Shown: positions 6,965 through 25,000 of the stretch, piece after piece
Layout: each line of letters opens with the position of its first letter
Position numbering within the stretch: the first letter of the stretch is position 1
From: a virus
Reading direction: 5' to 3' (one strand)
IMG/VR virus record: IMGVR_UViG_3300033153_002147
Location: 1-35,762 of that record
DNA length: 35,762 nucleotides
Translations under genes and position numbers: made by a program
The notes under the pieces: model-generated
What the model was told of the DNA's origin: nothing
What the model saw: the letters and a program-made list of their open reading frames with translations, nothing else
Database searches by the model: none

Positions 6965-9424
6965 TTAAGATGTTAATGTAATAAAATTATTGGTTCCTGC
7001 ATCAATTTTCATATTAGCAACAACAGGCTCAGGATATCCTATAATCTCAAATTTAACTGTGGGGTATGTACACCACTGACCTCTAAACATAGGAGCCGTA
7101 GCTGTGGATGCCCAGGTAACAGTTTTGTTAGCATTACCTTGTGGTAACATCCCATTCTCACTAGTTACAAATACTTTACTATAACGCTCGGTTGTTCTAT
7201 GAGACTTATCAAAAGAAACGGCTTGTCCTACGGGAAGCGGCGAACCAGATTGTTTGGCTCCAGGTCCCATATCAAATGCGTGGGTAAAATTAAGAGGGTC
7301 TCCCATATTCCAGACACAACAAATAATAAAATGGTCTATATGTTTTTCCACATATAAACCATGTGGATTCATCCATTGTGTGTGTTGATGCTGAGATGCA
7401 GTATGCCACCAATCCGCTTGCGCCTGGGAATCTGCTAGAGCGCAGTTAACGAGATTTAATCGTACATCATAATCTATCATCCACTCAGGTCGAGAACCAG
7501 GAGTAAAATCAATTCTTTTTCTTACCATAAGTGCTTGGTAACCATTAATCCTAGCATTAGCCGTGCTGTTGGCCGCTTCCCAACTAATATTCCAAGTAGG
7601 AAATTTTACATGAGATCCATAAAGAGCATCAAATGCAGTATCTTGACTTAATGGGTAAGTTGGTTCCAAAGCATCATTATAATACATATGAAATTTATCA
7701 TTTCTATGATTCGCACCATCATTAGACCAATCAGGGGTATCCCAATCTGGTTGTTGGGGTATTGTTCCTACCAAAGATTCTGGGTAATATCCCTGAGACT
7801 TTAGATAATCAGAAATACCTTTTGGGTATAAATCAGTAAGCTGGGTTCCCCCAGCCGTAGCCACATCAGCATCAGCAGCCAATCTAGCCAGTACACCTTC
7901 TACTCCGAACTTTATTCCACCAAAAATAAAACCACTTCCCACAGGTCTTGGGTATTGAGGTATCTCTGGTGGATTCTCATCTATATAATCTCTCACCTTC
8001 TCAGCAGTATCAGCTAATTGATATTTAGTAACAACTGGGTTGGCTAAAGATGCTGGTGGGTTAGCTGCTGCCAACCCTGCTCTCTCATTATAAGTAAGTT
8101 CTGCTGTACGGAAGAAAGGTCTTATATCTATAATATCTGTAGTACTTATGGTGGGAGTTCCAAATGTAGAGATAACATAAGCTATAGGAAGAACCGACTG
8201 CCCAATCATTTGAAGACTAGTTTTGGCTACCCCATCCGTTATATATGGAGCAGCATTTAACAAATCATCAGGGCTGGGGAAATTACCAAAAACACCCCCC
8301 ATACCATTTTGAGTTTGGTTTAAGTCTGATATAACAGAGGCTGTCTGCATATTTCCTTGAGTATCAAAATTACCAGACGGATCAAAATAATTAGTAGCAA
8401 TATCTATTCCATCCATATAAGTCTGACCTGTAAAGAAAGTATCGTCTATAGTTTGGTCTGCGAAAGATCCTTTTCCATTAAGAGATATTACCCCTGCCCC
8501 TTTAACTAATCCTAATGTAGGTTGATTTATTATAGTTGCACCAGTACTCTCTGGTCTAAGTATGGCAGTAGATGACGCATCAATAGGATGAGTATATATA
8601 AACAATAAATCTATTCTAACTGCTGGTACATAGTTAGTACTATTTTGATAGTCCTCAGAATCAAACATGGGAACATTTATAGTTAATTGAGTTGGCACAT
8701 TAACAATAGCTGTTCTAAATGGGGCACCATAAACTCTAGTGAATTCAACTGATAACTGCTGTAACCCTACATGAGAAGCAGTATCTGCTCCAAAATTTCT
8801 AACAGTTGTACCTTGTTTCCACAAAGCTAATTTTACTTTCTGAAGATCTAAAATTCCTTCCGAACTCTTATCATTCTGTTTAAAACTAGTATACTTATAG
8901 GTCCAATCTAAATTATACAGATTTGCTGGTGCTGTAACATTATGCTGAACAAAATCGTATAAACCATTATCTTGTAGAATATTAGTTACTATAGATCCCG
9001 CCAAAGATCTTAGAGTATTGGTAGGTGTAGTAATTTCAATTTCATTAACCATCCTGCCTGTTGCTGCTGCGGCTGTCTTTATAGCCATAGTAGATATACC
9101 CGTACCATAAGCATCATTAACTCTAGCGGTAAATCTACCTGGGGAAACAGTTACAGCCCTATCAGAACCTGTAGCAGATGGCTTTAGTTCTGCAATATCT
9201 GATCTGGAAACAGTAGCTAATTCCGTAGCCCCTACAGACACCTGATCTTTTAACCACAATAAGTTTTCTTGTAGTTGTTGGATAGGAACATTATCCACTT
9301 CCCAATAGTAAGGATCATTAGCTTTAAAAAGTCTAACGGGGTCAGTAAACTGGTGAGAACTAGGTCGATAAGTTATCTTACCTCCTCCCTGTCCTCCAGC
9401 GTAAAAGTCGTCATTATGTGTCAT
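6965..9424 (-). CDS. Virion structural protein, probable tail fibre or baseplate appendage
   Basis: An 819-residue protein. Its N-terminus holds KANDPYYWEVDNVPIQQLQE (residues 34-53). This is related to the N-terminus of the next upstream gene, which suggests both dock on the same baseplate site. The middle is rich in Thr, Asn, Ala and Val with alternating beta patterns. The C-terminal third (about 530-819) is rich in Trp, His and aromatic residues (for example WWHTASQHQHTQW), as in sugar- or receptor-binding tips. No catalytic motif is visible. Its ATG overlaps the upstream stop as TAATG. I class it as fibre-like from context and composition; the receptor-binding role of the C-terminus is inference. 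Confidence 0.65.
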   Translation of the reverse strand: MTHNDDFYAGGQGGGKITYRPSSHQFTDPVRLFKANDPYYWEVDNVPIQQLQENLLWLKDQVSVGATELATVSRSDIAELKPSATGSDRAVTVSPGRFTARVNDAYGTGISTMAIKTAAAATGRMVNEIEITTPTNTLRSLAGSIVTNILQDNGLYDFVQHNVTAPANLYNLDWTYKYTSFKQNDKSSEGILDLQKVKLALWKQGTTVRNFGADTASHVGLQQLSVEFTRVYGAPFRTAIVNVPTQLTINVPMFDSEDYQNSTNYVPAVRIDLLFIYTHPIDASSTAILRPESTGATIINQPTLGLVKGAGVISLNGKGSFADQTIDDTFFTGQTYMDGIDIATNYFDPSGNFDTQGNMQTASVISDLNQTQNGMGGVFGNFPSPDDLLNAAPYITDGVAKTSLQMIGQSVLPIAYVISTFGTPTISTTDIIDIRPFFRTAELTYNERAGLAAANPPASLANPVVTKYQLADTAEKVRDYIDENPPEIPQYPRPVGSGFIFGGIKFGVEGVLARLAADADVATAGGTQLTDLYPKGISDYLKSQGYYPESLVGTIPQQPDWDTPDWSNDGANHRNDKFHMYYNDALEPTYPLSQDTAFDALYGSHVKFPTWNISWEAANSTANARINGYQALMVRKRIDFTPGSRPEWMIDYDVRLNLVNCALADSQAQADWWHTASQHQHTQWMNPHGLYVEKHIDHFIICCVWNMGDPLNFTHAFDMGPGAKQSGSPLPVGQAVSFDKSHRTTERYSKVFVTSENGMLPQGNANKTVTWASTATAPMFRGQWCTYPTVKFEIIGYPEPVVANMKIDAGTNNFITLTS

Positions 9425-12400
9425 TACATTTCCCTCTCAACATCAAAGATATTAGTAGATGTGAAGCCCATTCCAAATGAACTTGTATCCCCAACGAAAG
9501 ATTCTCCATGTTGGGATGTAGAAGCTTTGTATATACTTACTAATCTCCTTCTACCACTGTAATTAGTATTACAATGTTTGGCATTACTAAAGGTGTTAGA
9601 AAAAGATTCATCTAAAAGTACCTGTGCATTACTATTATTTGGAAGCATAGCATGGGATCTATACCCCCCAACCAGCGAGAACCCAGTTTGCCCCGCTCCG
9701 CTCAATCCTATATGAGCAGAATCAGGCCAGTAATACCCACTTGTTGTACAAGTAGCGGGTGGCGTATGATCATCTATAGTATCATTTATAATATTAAGTA
9801 AATTTGGAAACACAGAGCTTAATGATTCCACCGCAGATACACTTCCTGACAGTGCGTATCCTTGCGCCAGATGTTGATAAGGTCTGGTATCATAACTACC
9901 CGCTCCAGCGTAACTTAATACTTTAGCCTCTGGATTAGTGGGGAAATACAATCTAAACGGACCCCTATTCTCATAGGAACTTGGGCCGTAAGTATCTACA
10001 TCCCCAGTTCTAGCTATTGAAATAGTTTTTTGCTCTACTCCCCTGTCAGCAGAATATGCAGATGACACAGCCACTCCACTCCCGTAATGATCAAGCACAG
10101 ATAATGTTCCTGTGTCTGGAGTACCAGAGAATGCTGCATACCCTACAGCACTAGAATCATTCATAAGATCTGGTTCTATTATACTACTCGCATAAAAAGA
10201 TCTGGGTCCTGTGTACCCTATCAAAGATGGATAAGATCCGCTAACCGTAGCGTAGGAAGCATTCAGTCTTGAAGTGTCCTGAACATTCCATATTTGCAAA
10301 TCATTACATCCAGCTATACTAGCTGAAGGATCAAAGAAAGATCCGTCTGCATTGTATTGCCCTGTTGGGAAGTGAACATTCCTAACAAAAATTTCACTGT
10401 CGCCAGTAGCTCTTACACACACACCTCCCCTTGTAGCTCCTGCCCTGAACTCTGAAGCTGTGTCTGCTGTACTATAGGCATTACTATATAGAACTCTATT
10501 ACATGACAATGAAACATCATATGCGTAAGCCTCGGGCCATACAACAGGAATATAATGATTATTGAAATCAGTTCCAGGTGACGCACCTCCTAAAGTTCCT
10601 ATAGCTAAATTAACATCCATAGGATTAGGATAAAATTGTAAGGCTCCTGCCTGACACAAGGAAGATAGTACACCAGAAGCGGTGAATCCGTGTGGGTTAT
10701 AATCACTAGAAGAAGTAGTAGAATCAGGCCAGAAATTTCTGAAGAATCCTAAATCCTCAAATCTTATTTGGGAGTTATTAGAAGCTATTACACATGCTCT
10801 AGTAGAGTGAATATCCAAAGAGGTATTTACAGAAAGCTCCATTCTGCCCCACCCAGACCCGTCAAGACTGCTATCATCTTCTCCAAGAACGGGACAAGCT
10901 TTTATAACTGAATTGTTATCAGCCAATATGCCTATACCATACTGAGAAATTCCTGTAGGACCCGTTATGTAAATAGTAGAATTATTGGTAGCTGCTAAAG
11001 CACTAGTTTTTGGCTGTGTGCCAAACCCAGGGGCACCTATAATATTAGTTACCCCCGTCTTAGATCCCACACCAGGATCATCAACATTTTCCCCATATCC
11101 AATCAACTTACAAACCCCACCATCATTAACTTGAATAGCGTTCCCTTTTGTGAAAGCTGTATTAATTGTACCCCCAACAGTACGAATCAGGGAGGCTGGC
11201 ATAACCGCTCTGGAATTATTAATAGAGATTGAAGGGATAGGACTTAAATTAGTGATATCATTATACCCAAAAGTAAGGTTGTATTCAAGCAAGCTATAAG
11301 CATCTGCTAAAGCTCCTACACCAATCTGGTAACTAGATAGATCCACAGGATAGTCTGGTCCATAGTAAGATCCCTCCTTAAGCCACAAGTGTCTTCTGTT
11401 CTTATTAAACATCCCTAATCTAGAAAAAGGAAGGTAATCACTACTATTGTAAATAGTAGAATTAGTACTACGAATAACTCTCTCAAAATCTGTATTTAAT
11501 ATAAACCTAGAGTTACTAAAATCAAGGCCTTCTTCTGCGGCATTTTCAATCATGAATCTACCTGTACGAATTTCAGATCCTTTCGCTTTTATATTTACTT
11601 CATTATTATAAATATCAGTGAGACCTTTGATATCGTACTCTGATGAATCAGCATATAATCCATAGTTATTGTACCCAATAGTTAAAGGAGTTAGATCTTT
11701 CATCGTTCCAACGATAACAGTTGCTGTCCCAGTTAGGTTTAGATTAGCTAATTCTCCTCCGTATAACTTAGAGTTGGTTAAATGTATTCCATAAGTGTGG
11801 AACCAAGACCCTAGACATGCTGCTGTTCCTATAGCATAATTAGGATCAGTTTTGTACTCTACTTCACTATTACTAATTTTGAATCCGTAGGTATCATTAA
11901 GTCCTCTAGTAGCTATTTCATAGTTACGCACAGCAAGATTTCTTCTTCTTAATTTTACTTTCGAATTATTTATCTCGTACCCTGCCATTGTGCATCTCAT
12001 TGCACCACAATCTTCAATAGATACATTGTTACTGTTGTAAACACCAATACCAACAGAGGTTTCATAAGCCGTAGTATCAGTATCATAACCATCAACTATA
12101 AATCCACGAACATAGATAGGCCCATCACTATTTTCTACCCTAATACGAGAAAGTTTATTAGCGGTTAAAACTCCATTAATAATTTGTTCTGCATTTTTAG
12201 GCTGCTGTCTTATTAAAACACCATCAATAGGACTTATAGTAGATACATCTAAAGTATCTATCGTTGAATCTAACTGCCCTGTAACTCCAGCCCCAGGAAA
12301 CTGATCCCCCACAATAGGACTTATATAAATATTATACAATGATTGGAATGGGGTAGTTTCTCCTACACCAGCATACGCATAAGTAGACTTAGATGGAGTA

Positions 12401-13074
12401 ACTCCACCAGTCCTACATTGACCAGTCGGGAAACCTAAAAATCTTGTAAACCCTGTAGGTACGGGGGCACCCCCACTTACGGGGAATATATCAGCGGTAT
12501 TAGCAGAAAATGCTACTGCACTAGAATTATAAAAATAGTTTATGGCTCCTGTAGCGGAAACTGTATCAGGTGTAAAGTTTACAGTATCAGCGTTAGTAGA
12601 CTCATATGTTGTCGCAGAACAAGGGTCAGTTCCAGACATATCAGACCATTCGGCTAATGGAGCAAATGCTCTATTAATAATTTCTAACGCTCCGTCCTCT
12701 TCACATTTAATATTGTTAAGATCTAGGGGGCCAATGTCCCCAGACACAGCTACCTCTATCAAAGTAGGCATTCTAATAATCTCTGGGAGAGATTCTATAG
12801 CCGCTGAAACAGAAGTGAAAACATTTGAGCTAGTGGCTAGTTGATTTGGGATAGTAGAAGATACTAGAAGTGCCATTCCAGGAACAGCAGATAAAGGATA
12901 CCCAAACTTCTCCCACAAGTAGTAGGTTCGTTCCTCTAGGTCATATAAAGGTAGGTTATCCTGCTCCCAATTATAAAAGGAAGAGGTATCATGCTTGGTT
13001 ACAAAGGGGTTCCAATAATTAAATATAGTCACTCCCCCAGAAAGTGTGTATAAGTCGTTTGAATTAAAAGCCAT
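9424..13074 (-). CDS. Tail fibre/appendage protein with right-handed beta-helix
   Basis: A 1216-residue protein. The N-terminus carries FYNWEQDNLPLYDLEE (33-48), matching the dock-like motif of the 819-residue neighbour. From about residue 310 to 900 the sequence cycles through short turns of the type N-[NS]-S-x-[IV/L]: NNSKVKLR, SNSEVEYK, TNSKLYGG, DSSEYDIKG, NNSTIYITG, SNNSQIRFE. Each turn ends a hydrophobic strand, the signature of a parallel beta-helix (pectate-lyase-like) as found in phage tailspikes and fibres. Such proteins bind or degrade surface polysaccharide, but I see no clear catalytic acid cluster, so no enzyme activity is claimed. The C-terminal 300 residues are Ser/Gly/Tyr-rich and may form the trimer tip. 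It is coupled by TAATG overlaps at both ends. Confidence 0.75.
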   Translation of the reverse strand: MAFNSNDLYTLSGGVTIFNYWNPFVTKHDTSSFYNWEQDNLPLYDLEERTYYLWEKFGYPLSAVPGMALLVSSTIPNQLATSSNVFTSVSAAIESLPEIIRMPTLIEVAVSGDIGPLDLNNIKCEEDGALEIINRAFAPLAEWSDMSGTDPCSATTYESTNADTVNFTPDTVSATGAINYFYNSSAVAFSANTADIFPVSGGAPVPTGFTRFLGFPTGQCRTGGVTPSKSTYAYAGVGETTPFQSLYNIYISPIVGDQFPGAGVTGQLDSTIDTLDVSTISPIDGVLIRQQPKNAEQIINGVLTANKLSRIRVENSDGPIYVRGFIVDGYDTDTTAYETSVGIGVYNSNNVSIEDCGAMRCTMAGYEINNSKVKLRRRNLAVRNYEIATRGLNDTYGFKISNSEVEYKTDPNYAIGTAACLGSWFHTYGIHLTNSKLYGGELANLNLTGTATVIVGTMKDLTPLTIGYNNYGLYADSSEYDIKGLTDIYNNEVNIKAKGSEIRTGRFMIENAAEEGLDFSNSRFILNTDFERVIRSTNSTIYNSSDYLPFSRLGMFNKNRRHLWLKEGSYYGPDYPVDLSSYQIGVGALADAYSLLEYNLTFGYNDITNLSPIPSISINNSRAVMPASLIRTVGGTINTAFTKGNAIQVNDGGVCKLIGYGENVDDPGVGSKTGVTNIIGAPGFGTQPKTSALAATNNSTIYITGPTGISQYGIGILADNNSVIKACPVLGEDDSSLDGSGWGRMELSVNTSLDIHSTRACVIASNNSQIRFEDLGFFRNFWPDSTTSSSDYNPHGFTASGVLSSLCQAGALQFYPNPMDVNLAIGTLGGASPGTDFNNHYIPVVWPEAYAYDVSLSCNRVLYSNAYSTADTASEFRAGATRGGVCVRATGDSEIFVRNVHFPTGQYNADGSFFDPSASIAGCNDLQIWNVQDTSRLNASYATVSGSYPSLIGYTGPRSFYASSIIEPDLMNDSSAVGYAAFSGTPDTGTLSVLDHYGSGVAVSSAYSADRGVEQKTISIARTGDVDTYGPSSYENRGPFRLYFPTNPEAKVLSYAGAGSYDTRPYQHLAQGYALSGSVSAVESLSSVFPNLLNIINDTIDDHTPPATCTTSGYYWPDSAHIGLSGAGQTGFSLVGGYRSHAMLPNNSNAQVLLDESFSNTFSNAKHCNTNYSGRRRLVSIYKASTSQHGESFVGDTSSFGMGFTSTNIFDVEREM

Positions 13075-13658
13075 TAGAACTGCAATGTCCAGCGAAAGAT
13101 GAGACTAAAATCACTAGTCTTAGTTATTTGTGTGAAGGGTCTATATGCTACTAAAATAGGGTTGGGGGCTGGTTCCGTACCCCTAGGATTTCTCATATAT
13201 AATCCTACTTCATTTACATACTTACCGTTAAGAGTATTTCTATCCAGAACTAGAGTATACCTTACAGAAGTATTTGTCACTTTATTTATATTACTAAACA
13301 TAATTCTAGCAAAAGGACTTAGTGCTGCGCCTATTACCCCATTTAAAATAGGATAATAGGGGTCTATAATAAGTCCTGTGTTTGAACCCCATTCCGACTC
13401 TGCTGTATTGGGACTCTGTAATTGGTATGTAGATACCCCATAATCAGAATAATCCCCACCCGACCCAACTAAAAAGTGTCTAATTTGATAATCTACTATT
13501 GATGAGGCTCCCGAAGCTGCAAATAGATGTGAAAATCCTACCCCCATACCTGAAGTAATTACATTATGATCATCAAAATACAACTCTTCCACCCCATCCT
13601 CATATCTCTTGAAGATTTGCAAATGACCTACAGGGCTCATCGGTTTTGTATTACTCAT
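13074..13658 (-). CDS. Small appendage protein, minimal member of a three-gene paralogous family
   Basis: A 194-residue protein that looks like the shortest version of its two upstream neighbours. Its N-terminus (VGHLQIFKRYEDGVEELYF, then HNVITSGMG) matches the N-terminal cap of the 616- and 993-residue proteins. Its C-terminus (VNEVGLYMRNPRG, VAYRPFTQITKTSDFSLIF, ending WTLQF) matches the C-terminal cap of the 616-residue protein. No large insert separates the two caps. No enzyme motif is seen; the protein is beta-rich and without coiled coil. It may be a baseplate adaptor or a short fibre collar. AGAGG lies about 12 bases before the ATG, and 36 non-coding bases precede the gene, one of the few gaps in the block. 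Confidence 0.65.
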   Translation of the reverse strand: MSNTKPMSPVGHLQIFKRYEDGVEELYFDDHNVITSGMGVGFSHLFAASGASSIVDYQIRHFLVGSGGDYSDYGVSTYQLQSPNTAESEWGSNTGLIIDPYYPILNGVIGAALSPFARIMFSNINKVTNTSVRYTLVLDRNTLNGKYVNEVGLYMRNPRGTEPAPNPILVAYRPFTQITKTSDFSLIFRWTLQF

Positions 13659-13694
13659 TATATTATTTATACCTCTACCTTAATTATATCACAT

Positions 13695-15545
13695 TTACTG
13701 AGACGATGTACATCCATCTGAGGGGTCTACTTGCTCTGTGTATGGAACAGATGTATCTAGTATAGAAAACTCCCAATCAATTATATACGAAAATTCAGAT
13801 GTTTTTGTAAAAGGGCACGAAATTACTTTGTAAGCTGCTAAAAATGGAGTATCCTTTCCCCTGTCCCCATTAGGATTTTTAAGAAATAAACCAACCTCGT
13901 TTATAGTTTGAGAATTTGCCAAATTCTCATCCACCTCTAATCTAACATTTACTGTATCATCAAATAATTGTGTAGAATTATAAGACGGTATGCCCACAAA
14001 GTCTTGTGGATAATTTAAATAATAAGACTGCTCTCCATGTACTGTCTGGTTGGGTCCAGCAGAAGGTCCGTATTCCCACTGAGAACATCCCACATATGCT
14101 TGTGCCCTAGGTATAGTTTCTGGCATAAAGTGACCAGAAGGAGTTCCGTCAGTTTGTAGAACTAAATTCGAAGCAACATCAACTACTGCAACACTAGACA
14201 TAATAGGGACCAAATAGGGCACTGCTCCTTGCCCTATCAATTCTGTTCCATTTGCATAAGATTTATAAAAATTTATCATCTTATCTGAGGCACTAACCCA
14301 CGAGACTGATACTCTGTAAAAATTACCACTAGGACCAAACCCAACATTAGAGGTGTCTAGATAATCTGCCCCAGGACCAGAACTGGTGGCGTACCCAGTT
14401 AAGTGATCCGCATAAGTATATACAGGTCCATATCTATTATGGATATTACCTGATACTACACCATATTCTGATTCGGATTCCATTCCGTAAATATCACTAA
14501 ACTTAGTAGCTGCATTCCCCTTTTGTAATTCCTGCATTTGCCAACCAGAAGAAACACCTAAGATTGAGGGAGTATAAGTAGCATCAGGATTCTCATAATC
14601 ATATCTATAAAGAAAATCAGTCCTATTGTGACCCGCATAAGTAGATATCAGATTTGAGGCATATCTATTAAATATTTGTATTTTCCCTGTAAGTGGGGTG
14701 CAAGATACCGAACTATCTACTCCTGAAACATAATGAATACCAGCTACATAAGATGACCAAGTTTGGGTAGTCTTTAGTTTACTGAAATTCGTCATCAAGG
14801 AACCTTTTAAATTAGTAGTGGTATCCCCGTTATACTTATATGAAAAATTAGCCCTAATACAGGAAAAGGGGAAAGATGCGTCACCATTATCATTTATCAA
14901 ATACCTATCGGGAGTATAGGAAAATCTCCAGGAAGGAACTTTAAAATCAGGACCAGACACAGTGTAGTCAGAATAGCTAGACATAGGGGGAATTGAAATA
15001 TTAGAAGTTTCTGCGCTCCATAGGTCAGCGCACCCCACTACCCATGTGCTACTTGCGGTGGGAAAATAGTTAGCATCAGACCTACTCCCCTTTATCCCAG
15101 CGGGTTGTATAACAAAAGTATTAGTGTACTCATTCTTAGTGTTCCTAATGTCTGGGGGCTCTACAAAATTATCTACTACTTTAGTAGTCCCCAAACCAGA
15201 GGGGTATATAGAACCTAAAACATAAGTATTTTGTGGGGTAACTGCCCACTTACTATCTCTCCCATATTGTGAAATAGTTAGAGGATTTTTTAGAGTCCAA
15301 AAATAAGATTTAAAGGATGAGGAGGTAAGATCTCCTGATATATCATAAGTGCTTAAGTCATACTTTTGATTACCTAATTGATAATAACTAAACTTATAAT
15401 CATCTGTGTCTTGAGATCCACCGCCAGTAAGAACATTCACTATTGCATGCTTTACCCCTTCTGTTACTTGATTTTCCTCCTCAAGTATAACCTCTTCTTT
15501 ACCAGAAAGCTTATTTATTTGTTTTATTTTAAACTTACCTATCAT
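13695..15545 (-). CDS. Appendage/fibre protein, paralogue with large central insert
   Basis: A 616-residue protein of the same family as the 194-residue neighbour. The N-terminal cap is MIGKFKIKQINKLSGKEEVI, with ENQVTEGVKHAIVNVLTGG just after. The C-terminal cap starts with INEVGLFLKNPNG near residue 548 and continues AAYKVISCPFTKTSEFSYII to an IDWEFSIL end. Between them lie roughly 480 residues rich in Ser, Tyr, Gly and Asn with beta character and no recognised domain. I chose the ATG at 15545, which overlaps the upstream stop as ATGA and has GGTGA upstream; a longer reading from TTG at 15563 adds six residues but lacks a binding site. The likely role is a baseplate-attached fibre or receptor-binding protein; this is inferred from position and composition. 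Confidence 0.65.
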   Translation of the reverse strand: MIGKFKIKQINKLSGKEEVILEEENQVTEGVKHAIVNVLTGGGSQDTDDYKFSYYQLGNQKYDLSTYDISGDLTSSSFKSYFWTLKNPLTISQYGRDSKWAVTPQNTYVLGSIYPSGLGTTKVVDNFVEPPDIRNTKNEYTNTFVIQPAGIKGSRSDANYFPTASSTWVVGCADLWSAETSNISIPPMSSYSDYTVSGPDFKVPSWRFSYTPDRYLINDNGDASFPFSCIRANFSYKYNGDTTTNLKGSLMTNFSKLKTTQTWSSYVAGIHYVSGVDSSVSCTPLTGKIQIFNRYASNLISTYAGHNRTDFLYRYDYENPDATYTPSILGVSSGWQMQELQKGNAATKFSDIYGMESESEYGVVSGNIHNRYGPVYTYADHLTGYATSSGPGADYLDTSNVGFGPSGNFYRVSVSWVSASDKMINFYKSYANGTELIGQGAVPYLVPIMSSVAVVDVASNLVLQTDGTPSGHFMPETIPRAQAYVGCSQWEYGPSAGPNQTVHGEQSYYLNYPQDFVGIPSYNSTQLFDDTVNVRLEVDENLANSQTINEVGLFLKNPNGDRGKDTPFLAAYKVISCPFTKTSEFSYIIDWEFSILDTSVPYTEQVDPSDGCTSSQ

Positions 15546-18523
15546 AGAAATTTCACCGTCCAATACATATCTAAATTCAGATAAGTGCCAAATACTCCTG
15601 CTGAAGTGCCTAGTCCTTCATTTTTAACTATACTATCTGTTAACACTTTTTTACTATAGAGTTTATATCTGGCGAAGGGGTATCCTGGATGATCTGAGGT
15701 GGTTCCAGTGTAGTCACTTACTCGCGCACCTTCGTATGTCATATTAAGAGGCGGGTAATTTGTTATGTATGTGGGACGATTCGTTTGAAGTGCAGCCTTT
15801 CTAATTTCCTTAAGGTCATACCCCCACAAGCCTATTACATCTACCCCACCAAAAAGATTTAGTAAAATAGAGTCACTACCCATACCACTCGCATGAGTAA
15901 AATCAAAACCCGCAGTACCAGTCATGTTAAGCAATCTCATATGGTAAGTAATTTCTCCCGTGGAAGAGAAGTTGGGTAATAGTTCACTAAACAGGGCTGG
16001 TCTTACCCATCCTGTTTGTGAAGTGGGCCAATTATCTGAAGTATCCGTGGAGTCCCCTGCCCCTGCTGGGGTTGCTTTATTAACAATTGGAATAAACCCA
16101 TCCCTGTCAGGACTACACTGATTATACCCATAATTACTAAGAAGCCCCCTAAGCCCTATCGCAGTACTGGACACAGGGTTAGACATGCCCTCCTCAGTAT
16201 ATGCGGATACATAATGAGCCCAATTAGTAACATATATGGGCTCATCATCCTCTCTCTGTATGTCCGTACTATTAACTCCTGAGGGAACCATACCACCTTG
16301 AGAAATATAAGTTCCAGTATAGGTTAGATGTCTCCCAAATACAGGACTATATCCAGAGGTATAAGTCCAAGAATCATCATAAGAGCTAACATATAAAGTA
16401 TCCCACAATGATTGGCAAGCAGAGTTCTGACCCTTAGTTATGTTAACCCCAAAGGCTTCTTCCACAGGAGTAATGGCTCCTGGTGTTAGTTCTCTGTCCT
16501 CAGGATTGGCAACAGGAATAAGTTCATTTTTGTGTGGTATATACGCTGATACTCCTGCTGACAAGGTTCCATCATAATAACCACTTAAGGTAGATCCCCC
16601 CGTCCCGCTAACCACATAATAATTTATAGCTACTTTAAGTGGGTCATCTGGATCTTGACCATAAGGAGGAGTAGCATTAAGTCTAGAGAACCTAAGTAAA
16701 TTATCTCGTTCATTACTTAAACCACAACTCCCGTCTGGGGAACAAGGAACTTCTACATAGTTTGTAGGGTGAGTACCTAATTCAAGTTGTGGTCTATTAA
16801 TAAATATAGACCCGTAAGAGGAGGTAGTTAATATACTTAAATCATAAGCAGCATCAACTAAAGAGTCACCATTCTGCCCAACAAAAGGATAGATGTAAAC
16901 CCTAGTACTGTCTATACTTCCTACTCCTGATAAATATTTTCCATAGACAAATGCCCTATACCACCCACCACCAAGAGATTTAATTCCACCCAAGGATGAA
17001 GCTCCTACTCCTTCATCATATACTGAAGGAAGTCCACTATTATCCCATTGCAAGAAAAGTCTATTAATATCTCCATTACAACTTACCGCTAATTGGGAAT
17101 AACTTAAATATTGCCCTGCGGAAGTGGAGGATACTTGTACTAATGGATTATCTATATTAAATTTAACATCCGTAGAGAATATAAAATCGGTTGCACTAAA
17201 GTATGGAGCATCAAAAGCACTAGCAGCACCCCCCTCGTAAGAAATTTCTTGCCCTAAATAACTACTAGAAGCCTGTGCTGATAAAGCATGACCACTAGTA
17301 CCAAATTCTGATCCCTGTATATAATTAGAACTTAATACAACTGAAGAGAAATTCCACGCAGGGTGCTGCCTCACTCCAGATTTAGCAGGAGTTTCATCTA
17401 TTATATCAGAGTCTGATCCCCAAGCGTCAAGCGTACCCGCCGAGTTAACTGCAATCCCAGACCTAAATCCAGCAGCTACCTTAGTAAATCCTGTTCCAGA
17501 TACTGGATCCCCTATATATACAAGATTTCCCCACGAAACCAAAGCCCCAGTAGAACCAATTGCCACAGACCAATCAGCCCCTCCTGCTATATCTGTATAT
17601 CCCGTTGTTTGAGGTCCAGAAGCTATTAGACAGCTTGCACCAGTATAAGTTGCACACCATTCGGCCCCCCACGAACTAACCGATCCAGCAGAATCAAGCG
17701 CAAGAGCATGATTATTACCAGCCGCTATCTTAGTAAATCCAGTTCCTACAGGAACATTTTTAATATCTGTGTATGGATTACCCCAATGAACGCAAGATCC
17801 AGCAGAATCAATAGCAAAAGATGAGAACCTTGATACTGCTATGTCTGTAAACCCAGTTCCTGTTGGGGTATCGTAAACCTCCCCATAAGTATCAAGTCCC
17901 CATACGGAAATAGACCCATCAGAGGCGAGGGCAAGAGCATGGTTATGTCCTACAGCAACTTTAGTAAACCCTGTTCCTGTTGGGGTATTATATACGAGGG
18001 CCAGAACAGGTGATCCCCATGCGGAAAGAGATCCATCAGAATCTATAGCAACGGCAAAAAATGTGCCAACATCAATATCAATAAACCCTGTTCCACTGGG
18101 GGCGTCACTTAATAAGTTATGATCGTTCACTCCCCAAGGCACTACTGACCCGTCAGTAGTAATCCCCACAGCCACCCTAGTAGAATATAAAGCAGCAGCC
18201 ACATCAGAATAGAACTCTCCTGTAAACCACTTCGGAGGTTCTCCAACTTCTGAGTTAATTAAAAAGTTATTAGTACTGTATGCATGTTGATTAGTAGTAA
18301 ATTGATCCTTTGCTTTAGACATTGAAAAAGCATTTACTATATAGTTCTTAGATATTAAATATCCAGATGCATGAGTCGGTACTATAGAAGCTATAGACGA
18401 AGGAGTAGTAAGCATGTCTACAATATTTTCAGAAAACCCAACCGTGGTTGTATTCTCTCCCTGGTAAAGGAGGTCCCTTTTACCAGTCTCTGTAGTTCCA
18501 TAAATCTCTACAACACCTTTCAT
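15542..18523 (-). CDS. Appendage/fibre protein with RCC1-type propeller and lectin-like domain
   Basis: A 993-residue multidomain protein. Residues 1-45 form the N-terminal cap shared with the two downstream genes (MKGVVEIYGTTETGKRDLLY, then a GENTTTVGF turn). Residues 117-382 hold seven repeats of about 37 residues, each with an AxDSDGSxxxWG core and most with a GTGFTKVA-type end: an RCC1/BLIP-II-like seven-bladed beta-propeller. Residues 385-595 resemble carbohydrate-binding jelly-roll modules of phage fibres, ending with GGGWYRAFVYG and the typical RPQLELGTHPTNYVEVP close. Residues 600-880 are unassigned. The C-terminus (VDVIGLWGYD near 892, final YWTVKFL) resembles the C-terminal cap of its paralogues. 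A receptor-binding role is likely. The start ATG overlaps the upstream stop as TAATG. Confidence 0.75.
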   Translation of the reverse strand: MKGVVEIYGTTETGKRDLLYQGENTTTVGFSENIVDMLTTPSSIASIVPTHASGYLISKNYIVNAFSMSKAKDQFTTNQHAYSTNNFLINSEVGEPPKWFTGEFYSDVAAALYSTRVAVGITTDGSVVPWGVNDHNLLSDAPSGTGFIDIDVGTFFAVAIDSDGSLSAWGSPVLALVYNTPTGTGFTKVAVGHNHALALASDGSISVWGLDTYGEVYDTPTGTGFTDIAVSRFSSFAIDSAGSCVHWGNPYTDIKNVPVGTGFTKIAAGNNHALALDSAGSVSSWGAEWCATYTGASCLIASGPQTTGYTDIAGGADWSVAIGSTGALVSWGNLVYIGDPVSGTGFTKVAAGFRSGIAVNSAGTLDAWGSDSDIIDETPAKSGVRQHPAWNFSSVVLSSNYIQGSEFGTSGHALSAQASSSYLGQEISYEGGAASAFDAPYFSATDFIFSTDVKFNIDNPLVQVSSTSAGQYLSYSQLAVSCNGDINRLFLQWDNSGLPSVYDEGVGASSLGGIKSLGGGWYRAFVYGKYLSGVGSIDSTRVYIYPFVGQNGDSLVDAAYDLSILTTSSYGSIFINRPQLELGTHPTNYVEVPCSPDGSCGLSNERDNLLRFSRLNATPPYGQDPDDPLKVAINYYVVSGTGGSTLSGYYDGTLSAGVSAYIPHKNELIPVANPEDRELTPGAITPVEEAFGVNITKGQNSACQSLWDTLYVSSYDDSWTYTSGYSPVFGRHLTYTGTYISQGGMVPSGVNSTDIQREDDEPIYVTNWAHYVSAYTEEGMSNPVSSTAIGLRGLLSNYGYNQCSPDRDGFIPIVNKATPAGAGDSTDTSDNWPTSQTGWVRPALFSELLPNFSSTGEITYHMRLLNMTGTAGFDFTHASGMGSDSILLNLFGGVDVIGLWGYDLKEIRKAALQTNRPTYITNYPPLNMTYEGARVSDYTGTTSDHPGYPFARYKLYSKKVLTDSIVKNEGLGTSAGVFGTYLNLDMYWTVKFL
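17378..18175 (-). repeat. Seven tandem RCC1-like repeats within the appendage gene
   Basis: Seven in-frame repeats encode one propeller blade each. Their W-G cores lie at residues 130, 169, 208, 247, 285, 331 and 368 of the protein. The fifth repeat carries a short insert with two cysteines (EWCATYTGASC). Some repeats are still alike at DNA level: the plus-strand segments near 17853-17880 and 17964-17988 share a long stretch around GTTCCTGTTGGGGTAT. This points to recent duplication or conversion of blades. Confidence 0.8.
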
Positions 18524-21500
18524 TAGTTCTCTACCCTTACTTTTGAATACTGTCTAGCTGACTCTTCGAACAATACAGATCCGTTCCCCCACATAGGAGC
18601 ATCACGATAATTCAATCTACTACCACCCTCTGGTCCATATTCCGCAGCACTAATTGCTTTGTCTCTAGAGGCAGACTCCGCTTGTAACCTCTTAAATTCT
18701 CTCAACATAATTAAAACTTCTTCTGGATCTAAAGGAACATCCAATAGTTCATTAATTTGTATATGAGAACCTAAAGTCTTTCCTACTATAGTTATAGACT
18801 TTATAGTGGAGTCTTTAGTTAATATTTCTGGTTGACCATCTGTACCAATAGTAAATAATCCATCATATAAGGTAGACTTAATTTGATAAGTAGCTAAAAG
18901 CTCGTCTTTAATCCAGAGACCCTTGGAGGTTAATGTAAGTTGAGAATAAAGTTTACCTACATTTAAAGATTCGTCAGCGTGAACTGTAACCTTATCTCCT
19001 CCTGCTGTAACTATATCTCCTTCTGGACCCGCTGATAACTGTGTTCCTTCTGGTATAGCTACTCCTAAGCTATCGTAATATACGAAGTAAGTAGTAGGTA
19101 TGGTCTCACTTAATTTATAGGTATTATAATGAATAGGATGTTTTACCGAAGTTCTGCTGTACTGACGCTCATCTATAACTGAAATATTATCAAAAATAGA
19201 GTATTTATCTGGGTTAGAATTAGTATTTAAAAATACCTCCACAATATAATTTTGAGAATTTCTGTGTACTTGATTATGTGATTGATAATAGGGTAACGAA
19301 AGTTTTATTTTGGGGTTATTAGTATTAAATGTAAAGGATCTAGATGTAAAATCTGATTTTTGTAGTATTTTTATAATATCTTTATTGTTACTCTCAACAA
19401 AACACTCATCCGTAGATACTGCCTCATGTAAAGTAGAATAATCCAAGTAATGAGATAAGGAATTTTTAACTAAATTAACTGCACCTTTAGACTGGAGTAT
19501 ATTAGCATCTAACATATTCCATTCCCCGTTGGGCATAAAATTCCAAAATACTTTATTCCCTACCGAGTCAGATTCCACATCTGTATGAATCCAGACACCA
19601 AAAGATCCTCCACCTAAAGTCTTACTATTTAAATTACCCACGGCAGCATTTAAACTAAATGTATAGTCCCTATCTGGTAAGATAAAGTTTTCAAATTCTC
19701 CATAATCTTTAAGGTTAAATCTCATCCTGGGGAAATGCCCTAGAGAATCTATTACAACTATAGGATTATCTATATTATAATTATCTCTAGTTGTGGCACT
19801 GTTAGATGCATCTAAGTTGTAAACTGAGAATTTTGTAGATCCACTAGACAAATCTACTAGCTCTACGCCAGATAAAACATAAGGATTACGAACTTCATTT
19901 CCTTCCACAGGCATATCATCTACACTAGTAATTGTAATATTACCCAGAGAGGATAATTGAGGTATCGTATAAGAACTAACCTCCGAAATTCCTGTGGATA
20001 TTAATTTTGGATCTACAGAGACGGCAGAGCCATCTACAGTAAAATAACCATTTAAGAAAAGAGGTCCGTATGTATGTGACAATATATTAGCCCCACCATC
20101 TTTATAAGTCTCTAATAAACCATTTCCTATACCTGTATTAGTAAAATAACTGATATAGTCTTTAAATAATTTATGCATACCGTCTATGGATCCTATACTA
20201 AAAATTCTTTTTCCCAATATAGAATTATAATAAGTATCCAGAGAAACAGTATTAGAATTCCATAAAGAATTTATTACCGACTGCACTGGGTTTATAAATG
20301 ATGAAGTATCTATTAAGAATTTATTTACTTCATAAATTCGTTCAGCCTCTTTAGTATATTTTTTATCTAAAAGTTTATGGAGGAATAGAGTAAATTCTGG
20401 TGGTCTATCTCTTCTAATATAATCATCACAGGAACTTTTAACTAATTGTGTACTTCCTCTACAATCAAATGTAGAGGATACAGGAATACCAGAATAAGTA
20501 AAGAGAGAATCTAGTCCATAACATGGGCTCCATACGGCATCGTCGTAGGGCCAACTACTTACTTCATATAAATCTTTAAAATTAAATACGGGGGTAAACC
20601 TATACTGATCAATATTAAACCCTAGGGGATAATAATCAGTATCACTACCCTCGGAACTTACATTAAAGTAAGAGGGCATATTAAACCCTGTTCTACTATA
20701 CCATCCACCCTTTTCAAGATTATTTGAAAAATTTCTCCTACGCATAGTTGTTCTGAATACATTAGAGGATGTGGGTGCGGCAGATAATGATGACCCGTCT
20801 AACTGTGCAAAATCAATAGGAGAATCTACAAAGGACCTTTTAAAGACTGGAAGGTAGGTGTGGTCGTTAGCTCCTCTAGACGAGTGTGTGGGGGTTGGGT
20901 AATCTCCGCCCACAGCCCCAGGGATGCTGGCTATGTCCATCCCAGCCGAAGCGGAGCCTCCCTGGAAGCCTGACACAGCCCTGTCCTGCATCCAATATCT
21001 CACACTGGGGCAATTGTACCCTGTTATCCTACTGTAATCCGTATCTACTAAATCTACATGGGGCCTAGGCATAGACTTTGCTGGGGAAAACTCGTCTACT
21101 ATAGATAAAGATTTAAAAAATTCTTCTGAACTGTATATAGAAGTATTAAAAAACTCAGAGGAGAAAGGCCCAGAGGACACATTCACATTAAATGTAGAGG
21201 ACTTACCACTCCACAACGAGAGGTAATCAAACTTATCTACTTCTAATGATTGTGTAATATCTGATTCATTTGGAGCAATATTTATAGAACTAGTAAAGAA
21301 TAAAAACGCATTACTGAACATATCAGTATCAGTATTACTAATAGTATGTGAGGTTACATACTGATTGAATTTACGAGCATTTGGTCTAGACACCCCCAAA
21401 CATATTAATTCATCTTCTAAAAACTTTAATAAGTTAGTAGTCACATCACAAGATTTATAAAATTTTATTTCTTCCCATGGAGGTATGGGGAACGATCTGT

Positions 21501-22944
21501 CCCTATACTCAAATACAAATTCAGGATTTTCTAAATCAAATTTAAAATTACGAACATAAAATAAATCATTATATTTTTGTACTGCTCTCAAAAGAATATA
21601 GTCTATAACTACCCTGATATTTAAATCCATATCGGAATAACTATATTCCCCGCTAGTGTATAGTAAAGCTTGTGTAGGGGTCCATGAGGTAAACGAACTA
21701 AATAATGTGCTATCTGTATTAAGAAGATAATACATTAAATATGGGATGTACGATTCGTAAAGTTCCGCTATAGCAGAGGTCTCCATGGATGTTCCTGGAA
21801 GAACCGTAGTTATTGCATTATAAAGACCCTCCTTAGTTCCTTTCTGCTTATACAATATGACGGCATACGAAAGCTGTCTTCTCCATCCTTTAGTATTTGA
21901 TCCCCTTAATCTCCACCCTATTAGTTCAGCTACATACTTTAATAGGTGGGCAGGACATCTTTCTAATGAGTAAAGGTATTTAAGTCTTTCAGCTTCATTA
22001 TTAGTGTCGTACATAGAGTACGATACCCCCTCTATAAACTTACTCAACGGTCCTTTGCGCTCTAAAGTATCTAAAACGAAACCATTATCTATATAATCAA
22101 TAAAAGCATCTTCTACATAACTATCCTTTTCATTGAATGTTAGGTCCGGATATATAATATCAACTAAGGTGGTAAGCCTATCTAATCCCTGTGTTCCACT
22201 AGTATATTCTGCTGTGCCAGAGTAGTAAGTAGGAGATAGAAGCCCTTGCGATACGGAAGATAGAGTAGCCCAGTTCCTCCATATATAATCAGCTAATCCT
22301 TTTACTCCTGTATTAACTGAAAAGTTAGTACCTGACATATACATATCGGTTAGTGCGCTTGCAACAAACCCAGAAGGAGCTACATTATCCGCAGAAGTGT
22401 TTAGGAAGTATGCCCACCCTAATTTATTAATTAGATAATTATGAGTTCCAGAAGGTGTAGTAGAAAAAGAGCTTAATGTTGTCTCCGCTAAAGACGAGGA
22501 ATTTAAAGAAACTTTTGGTAAAAATTTCTCTTTAAAAAATGATAGAAGTTTATTATATGGAGTACCAGAAAACCCACCACCACAATCTCCACTAGAACAA
22601 TTGAACGAAGCACAGGACTGCCCCGCTACCTCCCCAGTACATAAGCCTAGTTTATGAAGAACATTAGTTTCAAAATCTATTAAATTTAGTTGTTCTGTAG
22701 TATCATTAGTATTAACAAACCATCTAGATAAACCAGATACTGTATTAATAGAAGAAAATTCTCCCACAGCAGATATATTGAGTAGAGAAGGCTGATTTAT
22801 ACAAAAGTTTATATGGGTATTAATAATATCATCAATTTGTGATACTCCCATACCACTAGTCTCTACCTCAGTTTCAAAGTATAGTGACGGTATAAGGTAA
22901 TCTAAAGCATCCTTATAATTTCTTTTGTAGTACTTTTGGGACAT
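18523..22944 (-). CDS. Giant baseplate wedge protein with tail-protein-I-like domain (gp7-like)
   Basis: The largest product in the window, 1473 residues. Residues about 310-385 contain the P2 gpI/tail-protein-I signature: ERCPAHLLKYVAELIGWRLR, then WRRQLSYAVILYKQKGTKEG and LYNAITTVLPG. In contractile systems this domain sits in the protein that clamps the gp6-type dimer in each wedge (T4 gp7). The gene directly follows the gp6-like gene, the conserved order. The rest, over 1000 residues, is beta-rich and Ser/Tyr/Asp-rich and may form the arm that carries the fibres. A four-cysteine cluster lies at 102-121 (C102, C111, C116, C121). T4 gp7 is about 1032 residues, so this is a larger version. 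The gene is linked by TAATG at both ends. Confidence 0.75.
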   Translation of the reverse strand: MSQKYYKRNYKDALDYLIPSLYFETEVETSGMGVSQIDDIINTHINFCINQPSLLNISAVGEFSSINTVSGLSRWFVNTNDTTEQLNLIDFETNVLHKLGLCTGEVAGQSCASFNCSSGDCGGGFSGTPYNKLLSFFKEKFLPKVSLNSSSLAETTLSSFSTTPSGTHNYLINKLGWAYFLNTSADNVAPSGFVASALTDMYMSGTNFSVNTGVKGLADYIWRNWATLSSVSQGLLSPTYYSGTAEYTSGTQGLDRLTTLVDIIYPDLTFNEKDSYVEDAFIDYIDNGFVLDTLERKGPLSKFIEGVSYSMYDTNNEAERLKYLYSLERCPAHLLKYVAELIGWRLRGSNTKGWRRQLSYAVILYKQKGTKEGLYNAITTVLPGTSMETSAIAELYESYIPYLMYYLLNTDSTLFSSFTSWTPTQALLYTSGEYSYSDMDLNIRVVIDYILLRAVQKYNDLFYVRNFKFDLENPEFVFEYRDRSFPIPPWEEIKFYKSCDVTTNLLKFLEDELICLGVSRPNARKFNQYVTSHTISNTDTDMFSNAFLFFTSSINIAPNESDITQSLEVDKFDYLSLWSGKSSTFNVNVSSGPFSSEFFNTSIYSSEEFFKSLSIVDEFSPAKSMPRPHVDLVDTDYSRITGYNCPSVRYWMQDRAVSGFQGGSASAGMDIASIPGAVGGDYPTPTHSSRGANDHTYLPVFKRSFVDSPIDFAQLDGSSLSAAPTSSNVFRTTMRRRNFSNNLEKGGWYSRTGFNMPSYFNVSSEGSDTDYYPLGFNIDQYRFTPVFNFKDLYEVSSWPYDDAVWSPCYGLDSLFTYSGIPVSSTFDCRGSTQLVKSSCDDYIRRDRPPEFTLFLHKLLDKKYTKEAERIYEVNKFLIDTSSFINPVQSVINSLWNSNTVSLDTYYNSILGKRIFSIGSIDGMHKLFKDYISYFTNTGIGNGLLETYKDGGANILSHTYGPLFLNGYFTVDGSAVSVDPKLISTGISEVSSYTIPQLSSLGNITITSVDDMPVEGNEVRNPYVLSGVELVDLSSGSTKFSVYNLDASNSATTRDNYNIDNPIVVIDSLGHFPRMRFNLKDYGEFENFILPDRDYTFSLNAAVGNLNSKTLGGGSFGVWIHTDVESDSVGNKVFWNFMPNGEWNMLDANILQSKGAVNLVKNSLSHYLDYSTLHEAVSTDECFVESNNKDIIKILQKSDFTSRSFTFNTNNPKIKLSLPYYQSHNQVHRNSQNYIVEVFLNTNSNPDKYSIFDNISVIDERQYSRTSVKHPIHYNTYKLSETIPTTYFVYYDSLGVAIPEGTQLSAGPEGDIVTAGGDKVTVHADESLNVGKLYSQLTLTSKGLWIKDELLATYQIKSTLYDGLFTIGTDGQPEILTKDSTIKSITIVGKTLGSHIQINELLDVPLDPEEVLIMLREFKRLQAESASRDKAISAAEYGPEGGSRLNYRDAPMWGNGSVLFEESARQYSKVRVEN

Positions 22945-24560
22945 TAAACTAAAGCTATATTTACCGAAACATTATTTAATTGAATAATTTCATTAAACTC
23001 AACATGGACATTAGAAGACATGTTATCAATAGAAGAGAATCTTACATCATCTGTTTCAAAAATTTCTCTATTTAAATCTGAAAGAATTAAAGGATCTCCA
23101 AAATCCCAATTGTCAGCTAAAAAATAACTCTGTATTCTATTTGCTACCCTATTAGATACTGTTGTTCCCAACCCTTCAAACTTCTTGTCTACAGTAATCG
23201 TAACTATTAGATCCAGAGTTCTTATTAGACCATCTACCAATACAATATCATCTGTTATCATTTTTTTACTCCCTAAATCTGATAATAAAGCATTTTTAAA
23301 TGATAAAGAAGCTTTTTGAAATTGGGTAGAACTAGCTTTCTCTAATAGGTATAAATCTATGATATTAGCAGAAGAGAATGCTTCTCTAGTAACAGCTACA
23401 GCCTTACCAGTAGTCCCAAGAGGGGAGGTAAATCTATTGGCATAAGCTCTATAATCGTCTAAAGATACTACTCTATCTTGAGTTTTGAAGAATAAGGGGC
23501 CGTATTTTTTGGCATGGTCTTTAGTCTCTGCGTCTGCCCCCCCAGTGGCTAAAGAATTTTGAACCACTCGTATACCAGTTCCAGTAACAGCATTGTACAT
23601 TCCCGTTCCTACAGTATTTAAAAAGTTATTAGGAATATTGCCTCTGGTTCCCCCACCTACTCTATAGGTTATGGTATACGAAGCTAATGACGGTGGTGAT
23701 ACCCCATTACTCCCATCCCCAAATAAAATGTTTGCAGTATAATCATCAGTGTACACTACTTCAAAAATTTTATCGTCTGTGGAAGAGGCTTGGTATAAAT
23801 TATTTACTTGTCTATATGCACCATTAGCTTGAGGAGTTTCTGTAGAAGTTACATAAACCTGCACACTATTTTGTACTACTGGGCTTTCCTCTAAAACTAC
23901 AGATTTAAAAGTATTTATACTCGTAAAAGTTCCACTTTGTACAGCAAAAGCACCTTCTAGTAAAACACCTTCAGCATAGTTCCCTGAAGAGAAGCTTGCC
24001 ACAGAAGAAGTAAATGAAATGGTTCCATTACTATTTACAGCATCTATCATACCAGTGCTTTGTCTATACAATGTAAATGTAAGAGGTTCTCCATCCTCAG
24101 GAGAAGTTACCGTGAATACTCTTTCAGAGGGCTGTAATGTTAATGTGTTGTCGATTTCAGTAACCCCATCAACAGAAATATCAACTGTGGCTTGGGAAGA
24201 AGTGGGACCATTCAAAGAAATTCCAACAAGCTTAAACAGCTTTCTTACGCTATCTATATCCTTAGCGGTAGTTATAAAGTTTTCATTAGCTAACATATCT
24301 GATTTTAATGACATTACTGCTCCCATATAAGAAACAAGCTCTATAAGCATTAGCCCCAAATCAGACTCTACAAAGTTATTATACTCTAAAGGGTAAACTG
24401 CGCGTATATAGTTCATTAAAGATTCTCTCAAAGTAGCAAAATCCGTAGATCCGTAATCAATATAAGTATCTTTTAAGGAATCTGGTATTTGTGCTAATCT
24501 TTGAAAGTCAGAAGCTACTGTAGTGAATGGTACTGCTCTACTAGAATACGGGTTGCTCAT
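22944..24560 (-). CDS. 6: Baseplate wedge protein, gp6/J-like
   Basis: Core wedge subunit; in T4 two copies of gp6 per wedge form the iris ring that opens when the sheath contracts. The 538-residue product has the family layout. A helical N-terminus (LESDLGLMLIELVSYMGAVM-like, residues 64-83) is followed by a beta-rich middle. The baseplate J-like core has LFGDGSNGVSPP (279-290) and TYRVGGGTRGN (298-308), then GGADAETKDHAKKYGP and QDRVVSLDDY (361-370). The length is slightly below T4 gp6 (660). The ATG overlaps the gp25 stop as ATGA, and AAAGG is present upstream. The gp25-gp6-gp7 order is that of contractile injection systems generally. Confidence 0.9.
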   Translation of the reverse strand: MSNPYSSRAVPFTTVASDFQRLAQIPDSLKDTYIDYGSTDFATLRESLMNYIRAVYPLEYNNFVESDLGLMLIELVSYMGAVMSLKSDMLANENFITTAKDIDSVRKLFKLVGISLNGPTSSQATVDISVDGVTEIDNTLTLQPSERVFTVTSPEDGEPLTFTLYRQSTGMIDAVNSNGTISFTSSVASFSSGNYAEGVLLEGAFAVQSGTFTSINTFKSVVLEESPVVQNSVQVYVTSTETPQANGAYRQVNNLYQASSTDDKIFEVVYTDDYTANILFGDGSNGVSPPSLASYTITYRVGGGTRGNIPNNFLNTVGTGMYNAVTGTGIRVVQNSLATGGADAETKDHAKKYGPLFFKTQDRVVSLDDYRAYANRFTSPLGTTGKAVAVTREAFSSANIIDLYLLEKASSTQFQKASLSFKNALLSDLGSKKMITDDIVLVDGLIRTLDLIVTITVDKKFEGLGTTVSNRVANRIQSYFLADNWDFGDPLILSDLNREIFETDDVRFSSIDNMSSNVHVEFNEIIQLNNVSVNIALV

Positions 24561-25000
24561 AATTTTACCTTTATATTTATAATATCTGTTGATTTAACTG
24601 GGGACACCGATACCTGAACCTCTATCCCAGGCATCCCAAAACCATGTAAGTTATCGCTTTGAAAAAATCTAATACGATTAACTTTAATATTTGGAGCATA
24701 TCTAGTTAAACCACTTTTAATTTCACTAGCCAGTATCCCCGCTAAAACATTAGTAAAAGGCTCAAATACAAAATTCATTAAGGTTGTACCAAAATCAGGT
24801 AACATAAGTCGTTCCCCTTTTTTAGTTAAAATAAATTGAGTTATCTGATCTTTAATTAATGAATAACCAGTAGACTGACTAAAATAAGGAATAGAGGAAG
24901 ATCTGCTAGAGGGCCATTGTAAACCTATAGTCTTAGACTTAGGACCAGATATGATACCCTCTTTAACTATATTAGTAGCTACTTTTCCATATAATACCAT
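24557..25000 (-). CDS. 25: Baseplate wedge protein gp25 (gpW/gp25 family)
   Basis: Short wedge core protein that links the wedge to the first sheath ring. The 147-residue length matches the family, and the hallmark segment is present at 58-80: LTKKGERLMLPDFGTTLMNF followed by VFEP. The C-terminus (GIEVQVSVSPVKSTDIINI) is the expected final beta sheet. The family is sometimes labelled lysozyme-like, but no catalytic residues are evident and no enzyme role is claimed. The stop overlaps the gp6 start as ATGA, so wedge subunits are likely made in balanced amounts. Confidence 0.92.
   Translation of the reverse strand: MVLYGKVATNIVKEGIISGPKSKTIGLQWPSSRSSSIPYFSQSTGYSLIKDQITQFILTKKGERLMLPDFGTTLMNFVFEPFTNVLAGILASEIKSGLTRYAPNIKVNRIRFFQSDNLHGFGMPGIEVQVSVSPVKSTDIINIKVKL

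Follow-up and report, generated by a model that had tools for sequence, protein, structure and literature searches.

The sequence analysed here, hereafter the window, is the whole of a 35,762-base virus record, from a marine phage with a contractile tail, in which three neighbouring genes probably encode paralogous beads of a baseplate arm, that is, connectors between the BW3 protein and the tail fibre network with the fold of T4 gp8 and A511 gp105. These proteins are referred to in transcription order as B (993 aa; 15542–18523), M (616 aa; 13695–15545) and S (194 aa; 13074–13658); all three are encoded on the minus strand and lie where an earlier note on this DNA had placed them. The 616 residues of M are counted from an ATG, and the longest open reading frame at this location (622 aa) begins with a TTG at 15563. 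Each bead would consist of one small beta-sandwich domain, with the terminal “caps” of the earlier note corresponding to its N- and C-terminal halves. The loop between the halves, as well as the C-terminus, would tolerate very large insertions, and the cargo could evolve without change to the contacts holding the arm together. By analogy with phages A511 and Milano, the beads may form dimers through which an extended BW3 segment runs. For adsorption, such an arm would present to the cell surface the inserted domains that bind or modify glycans, and the bare S bead together with the product of the next gene would couple the arm to the fibre.

The idea of a plug-in scaffold at a fixed baseplate site, put forward in the earlier note, finds support in gene order and in the match to the gp105/gp8 fold. 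Upstream of the beads, on the same strand, are genes for a gp25-like baseplate wedge protein (24557–25000; PF04965, E 1.3e-9), a gp6-like baseplate wedge protein (22944–24560; phrog_219, E 8.8e-34), and the 1473-aa BW3 (18523–22944), which occupies the position of T4 gp7, A511 gp104 and P2 gpI and is the putative “string” of the arm, as indicated by a weak Tail_P2_I match and gene order. Downstream, also on the minus strand, is a 1216-aa fibre-like protein (9424–13074; gene order and a weak beta-helix match) that follows the beads in relatives as well. Relatives were collected by scanning viral contigs, resulting in 208 sequences (including the window) and 109 clusters after merging of sequences that shared 150 identical bases; no prophages carrying them were found in bacterial genomes. 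The gene order is gp25-gp6-BW3-[beads]-fibre in the window and BW3-B-(M)-S-fibre in the relatives. A511 has a matching order (236-348-1309-173-1151 aa, by size and position gp102 (gp25-like), gp103 (gp6-like), BW3 gp104, gp105 and gp106), with a single 173-aa bead where the window has three. Two further phages, each with a single undecorated bead, have this order as well: Pseudomonas phage Aura (vB_PpuM-Aura, laboratory host P. putida KT2440; 127-494-398-198-1346 aa) and Morganella phage Mecenats66. The bead genes are therefore directly downstream of BW3 and upstream of fibre genes in the window, the relatives, A511, Aura and Mecenats66. The corresponding order in T4 is 6-7-8. BW3 length showed no relation to the number of beads (medians of 1465 aa in two-bead and 1473 aa in three-bead phages), and for this reason a rule of one thread segment per paralog is not claimed.

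Additional features were observed in the remainder of the window. The proteins encoded at 6965–9424 and 9424–13074 start alike (PYYWEVDNVPIQQLQENLLWLK and SSFYNWEQDNLPLYDLEERTYYLWEK), and one relative (L007) carries a tandem pair of the first type; these proteins are possibly a second paralogous anchor series. BLAST of one against the other gave no match at E 0.01. The gene at 779–1609 encodes a prohead protease S77 (E 2e-23), and that at 25010–28111, upstream of gp25, a 1033-aa protein in which a concanavalin-like domain was weakly matched; together they may represent a T4-like virion set with an extra, possibly sugar-binding part.

The earlier note had proposed that all three proteins share an N-terminal and a C-terminal cap. 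Within the window, BLAST matched S to M at both ends (C-terminal, 38% identity over 79 aa, E 2e-11; N-terminal, 24% over 67 aa, E 7e-4) and did not match B to either. Profiles of ∼100 relatives compared using hhalign related the N-halves of all three proteins (S-M 5e-24, S-B 5e-10, M-B 5e-14). For the C-halves the S-M value was 2e-32, with much weaker values for B (S-B 1.2e-3 over 73 collinear columns; M-B 2.5e-4); this agrees with the earlier note, which had itself named the C-terminal match of the 993-aa protein as the weakest part. Control comparisons of N-half against C-half profiles gave a best E of 0.012, and 40 column-shuffled versions of the B C-half always scored below the real one (maxima of 19.0 vs 22.6 and 16.1 vs 26.3). 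Detection of the B C-half depended on profile depth, as three minimal B proteins gave no match, 17 members gave a P of 0.02–0.03, and 110 members resolved it. On these sequence comparisons we consider, with moderate confidence, the C-half of B to be homologous to those of S and M. The NP-x-G and KTS[DE]FS motifs that had been suggested as common to the C-terminal caps are absent from B; what remains is GLW..D / YKLYSKK / YWTVKF with the order of strands unchanged (E857-864, E896-902, E953-960 and E983-991 in the B model; E131-138, E147-155, E168-179 and E184-193 in the S model).

The boundaries of the halves follow from these comparisons. In S, the N-half comprises residues 1–84 (13407–13658) and the C-half residues 114–194 (13077–13319; NEVGLYMRNPRG...KTSDFS...W; phrog_5417, E 1e-6), separated by a loop at residues 85–113 (13320–13406) that is equivalent to the plug-in site and holds no insert. 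In M, the N-half (residues 1–73; 15327–15545) and C-half (residues 505–599; 13749–14033) flank an insert of about 431 aa (14034–15326). The N-half of B spans residues 1–83 (18275–18523) and its C-half, with the degenerate motif, residues 849–993 (15545–15979). The spacers between halves are thus ∼29 aa in S, ∼430 aa in M and ∼765 aa in B; earlier figures of 480 and 850 for the latter two were slightly high, and the picture of large inserts holds.

An AF2 model of S, based on 16 orthologs, is a single mostly-beta domain (pLDDT 79, pTM 0.78). Both ends of S fold as this one domain, and the B model repeats the strand order of its C-terminal part; the caps thus overlap structurally and form a shared scaffold, in which they are the two halves of one domain and not separate end pieces. 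The top matches of the S model among solved structures were A511 gp105, the phi812 arm segment, T4 gp8, a Klebsiella phage KP1 baseplate protein, phiKZ gp139 and an HFTV1 tail chain, with VIA Z of 6.6–8.6 for these connector-type matches (118–151 aligned) and 4.4 for the first unrelated chain. A Z of ∼7 falls in a grey zone, and this is where A511 gp105 (7.1), the phi812 arm (7.1) and T4 gp8 (6.6) are found; Foldseek matched A511 gp105 with an E of about 4e-3 (prob 0.99). Comparison of a gp105-family profile with the bead profile placed EIGLF and QVGVF in register (hhalign E 0.025; score 21.5 vs a shuffle maximum of 20.9). Since this similarity is not significant, the link to gp105 rests on fold and gene order, and the fold of M and B is assigned through the homology of their halves to S. 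The bead profile matched no PDB chain by sequence, and neither S nor M had a tblastn match in named phages; isolate relatives were detected only when distant members served as queries. Using profiles, the single beads of Aura and GR11A, along with a weaker huge-phage candidate (L212), matched S at E 8e-17 (hhalign).

In a viral structure library, the best fold match of the S model was B2CRN3, an uncharacterised protein of a Betalipothrixvirus (an archaeal filamentous virus; E 1.7e-9, 21% identity), with further matches in AFV1, SIFV and haloarchaeal tailed viruses. If true, it would be surprising for viruses that lack a caudoviral tail to possess a gp8-like core.

Decoration of the beads varied widely among relatives. 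The 99 B beads measured 290–1173 aa; 30 exceeded 430 aa (decorated) and 69 were undecorated. Essentially one site is used, as decorations begin at the end of the N-half and the minimal protein then continues: the N-segments mostly stop at positions 79–109 of a 352-position minimal profile (with overrun in a few alignments), and the three longest proteins have an extra second site near position 235. A single-linkage family, the jelly-roll cassette, accounts for all non-Kelch decorations (28/30 proteins), and the other two proteins carry Kelch propellers in its place (PF24681, E 2e-35 and 4e-29). M beads were present in 33 clusters and ranged from 195 to 1517 aa (195–271 aa in bare forms); an insert of >250 aa was found in 11, a C-terminal extension in 16, and both in one. 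The extensions matched sulfatase (PF00884, E 2e-27) and, weakly, alpha/beta hydrolases (esterase-like). In two marine phages (L142/L143) the sulfatase match lies at residues 895–1273 of the middle bead, and a homologous stretch occurs in a different ORF of another relative (L150:2-1378). A tree built from 96 S beads implies at least 8–9 changes in the decoration of B and at least 10 in the state of M; the tree was a quick one with many open forks, making these minimum counts approximate.

These counts bear out the earlier expectation that inserts are less conserved than caps and turn over. The ∼430-aa insert of M, confined to the clade of the window, is stable there (11/11 clusters, 30–62% identity). 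This stability, together with the lack of a Pfam, PHROG or PDB match or any recognised ligand-binding fold in the M insert, would fit beads whose inserts are structural, influencing the length, stiffness or packing of the arm around the hub and binding no receptor. We consider this unlikely, however, since decorations change faster than the core and since interaction with surface glycans is typical of CBM-like jelly roll, Kelch, RCC1, sulfatase and esterase-like domains. From these cargo types we infer receptor binding by the inserts, and, taken together with the example of phage Vp4, they make contact with surface polysaccharides during adsorption somewhat more probable than its absence.

The shared domain could also be viewed as a generic fibre anchor of the P2 gpH / PF12571 “tail-collar” type, with the genes encoding separate fibres or spikes on the wedge and not one arm. 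P2 gpH likewise sits after a gpI-like protein, one viral fold match of S is a “Tail fiber protein” (A0A868BZR7), and the EiGLF-type motif presumably resembles PF12571. This identity was our first idea and was dropped, as PF12571 was unmatched at E 1 by the window proteins and by seven diverse cores. Moreover, the solved structures that matched S are connector proteins and not fibres, and S itself (186–240 aa) was bare in 98/98 clusters, with 23–50 aa between its halves, and is followed by its own separate fibre gene. We regard the fibre-anchor interpretation as improbable and retain that of arm beads.

The largest bead of the window, B, appears to contain one insertion within another. Its plug-in is a CBM-like jelly roll (residues about 82–93 and 389–594; 16742–18280) split by an RCC1 propeller (residues about 94–388; 17360–18244), and between the plug-in and the C-half is a constant middle (residues 595–848; 15980–16741), of which a stretch of at least 140 aa recurs in every B bead compared. 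The RCC1 propeller reported earlier was recovered with PF13540 (E 2.5e-24; 84.8 bits vs a Pfam cutoff of 22); it matches RCC1/UVR8/HERC chains and has 7 WG-type blades as counted by eye. The “lectin-like” domain of the earlier note is, in the structure prediction, this CBM-like jelly roll, with VIA Z of 14.6 to Pa193, 12.3 to E217 and 10.3 to CBM16 (about 10 for CBM16/22); by sequence alone the E was 0.02–0.04. Because the CBM match covers residues 82–594, i.e. both flanks of the propeller, the propeller is placed within the first CBM loop, and the CBM in turn is nested in the bead core. Model confidence was uneven (mean pLDDT 53; 75–92 over much of the CBM; <40 in the propeller, which had no aligned homologs), and the RCC1 assignment therefore rests on the Pfam match. 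Foldseek matches of the 993-aa model (e.g. picornavirus jelly rolls) were mostly at chance level and were disregarded; gp8-like chains do not appear among its listed structure matches because the CBM fills them.

The other B proteins of the clade are 590–752 aa long and lack residues about 93–388, and the RCC1 insert was found in no relative and on one contig only. Elsewhere, three other phages had matches to it at only 26–29%, and the genes concerned carry the annotation regulator of chromosome condensation or BNR repeat. The flanks of the insert (18200–18260 and 17340–17375) read GEPPKWFTGEF and RQHPAWNFSSV, perhaps a junction duplicated upon insertion. An assembly chimera, for which the single contig and the absence of a relative of the insert in viral contigs could be cited, is very improbable given a reading frame intact over 993 codons at both junctions, an apparently complete propeller placed at a CBM loop and an insert GC that is modestly higher (0.40–0.45 vs 0.36–0.44 elsewhere in the two larger genes), and the general case for turnover is independent of this insert.

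A further connection was found between M and BW3. The 640 C-terminal residues of M in four relatives (L029-L032; residues 591–1230 in L029, 13732–15651) are homologous to the BW3 C-termini of L007 (residues 1487–2154; 4567–6570) and L019/L020 (residues 1503–2115), with E values of 3e-128 and 5e-115, and the M proteins of L007 and L019/L020 lack this module. No PDB match better than chance was obtained for it. The presence of one module on M or on BW3 in different phages fits membership of both proteins in one assembly. Tentatively, the arm may be a heterotypic string, with a separate paralog (B, M or S) for each bead position. The bare S would be constant and couple arm to fibre, B and M would be cargo positions with a fixed docking loop, and surface tools would be swapped by insertion or by movement to BW3, leaving the assembly interfaces untouched.

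If correct, this interpretation provides a name and a structural frame for a large unannotated baseplate family of marine phages (PHROG 5417, “unknown function”). It also describes a route for changing the parts that contact the surface, whereby whole domains, and even domains within domains, are plugged into one loop of a conserved connector. Host-range evolution is usually sought at fibre tips; here it would be located on the arm connector, at a site that is thereby testable, with the bare paralog S as a natural built-in control.

Several components of this arrangement have counterparts in known systems. A511 gp105 and T4 gp8 are described as dimeric “BW3 - tail fibre network” (BW3TFN) connectors, and in A511 three gp105 dimers per arm are described as beads on an extended stretch of BW3 (PMC10811340, PMC9863714). 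S resembles A511 gp105, the Herelleviridae BW3TFN and the phi812 arm segment in fold (Z about 7), in gene position between BW3 and fibre, and in size (194 vs 173 aa for gp105); however, A511 has one bead gene, and the three paralogs of the window have no significant sequence similarity to gp105. T4 gp8, a baseplate wedge connector that contacts gp6, gp7 and gp10 (PMC3004832), also matches S in fold (Z 6.6), yet is a single dimeric protein of 334 aa with no known receptor-binding cargo. Milano phage encodes two gp8/gp105-fold paralogs, the garland proteins gp125 and gp127, which are about 30% identical and form a string of dimers (PMC10811340). They share with the window the presence of paralogous proteins of this fold in one phage, but form a distal garland round spikes and fibres, are encoded away from the wedge genes and are undecorated. 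The closest case of decoration is Gp119 of Bacillus phage Vp4 (831 aa), a gp105 homolog with two CBMs (268–425 and 685–799) missing in the Deep-Blue and A511 homologs and proposed to bind host glycans (PMC11406892). It is a single gene with no bare paralog beside it, and a propeller or nested insertion is not reported in that study. A literature search, with most subscription journals outside its reach, found no case of bare and decorated paralogs standing in tandem where gp105 lies, of a jelly roll and a propeller that interchange at one docking loop, of a nested propeller or of module transfer to BW3. Connectors of the gp105 type with decorations were already known, and so, separately, were gp8-fold paralogs within one phage, whereas the tandem of bare and decorated paralogs, the nested insertion and the movement of modules appear to be new.
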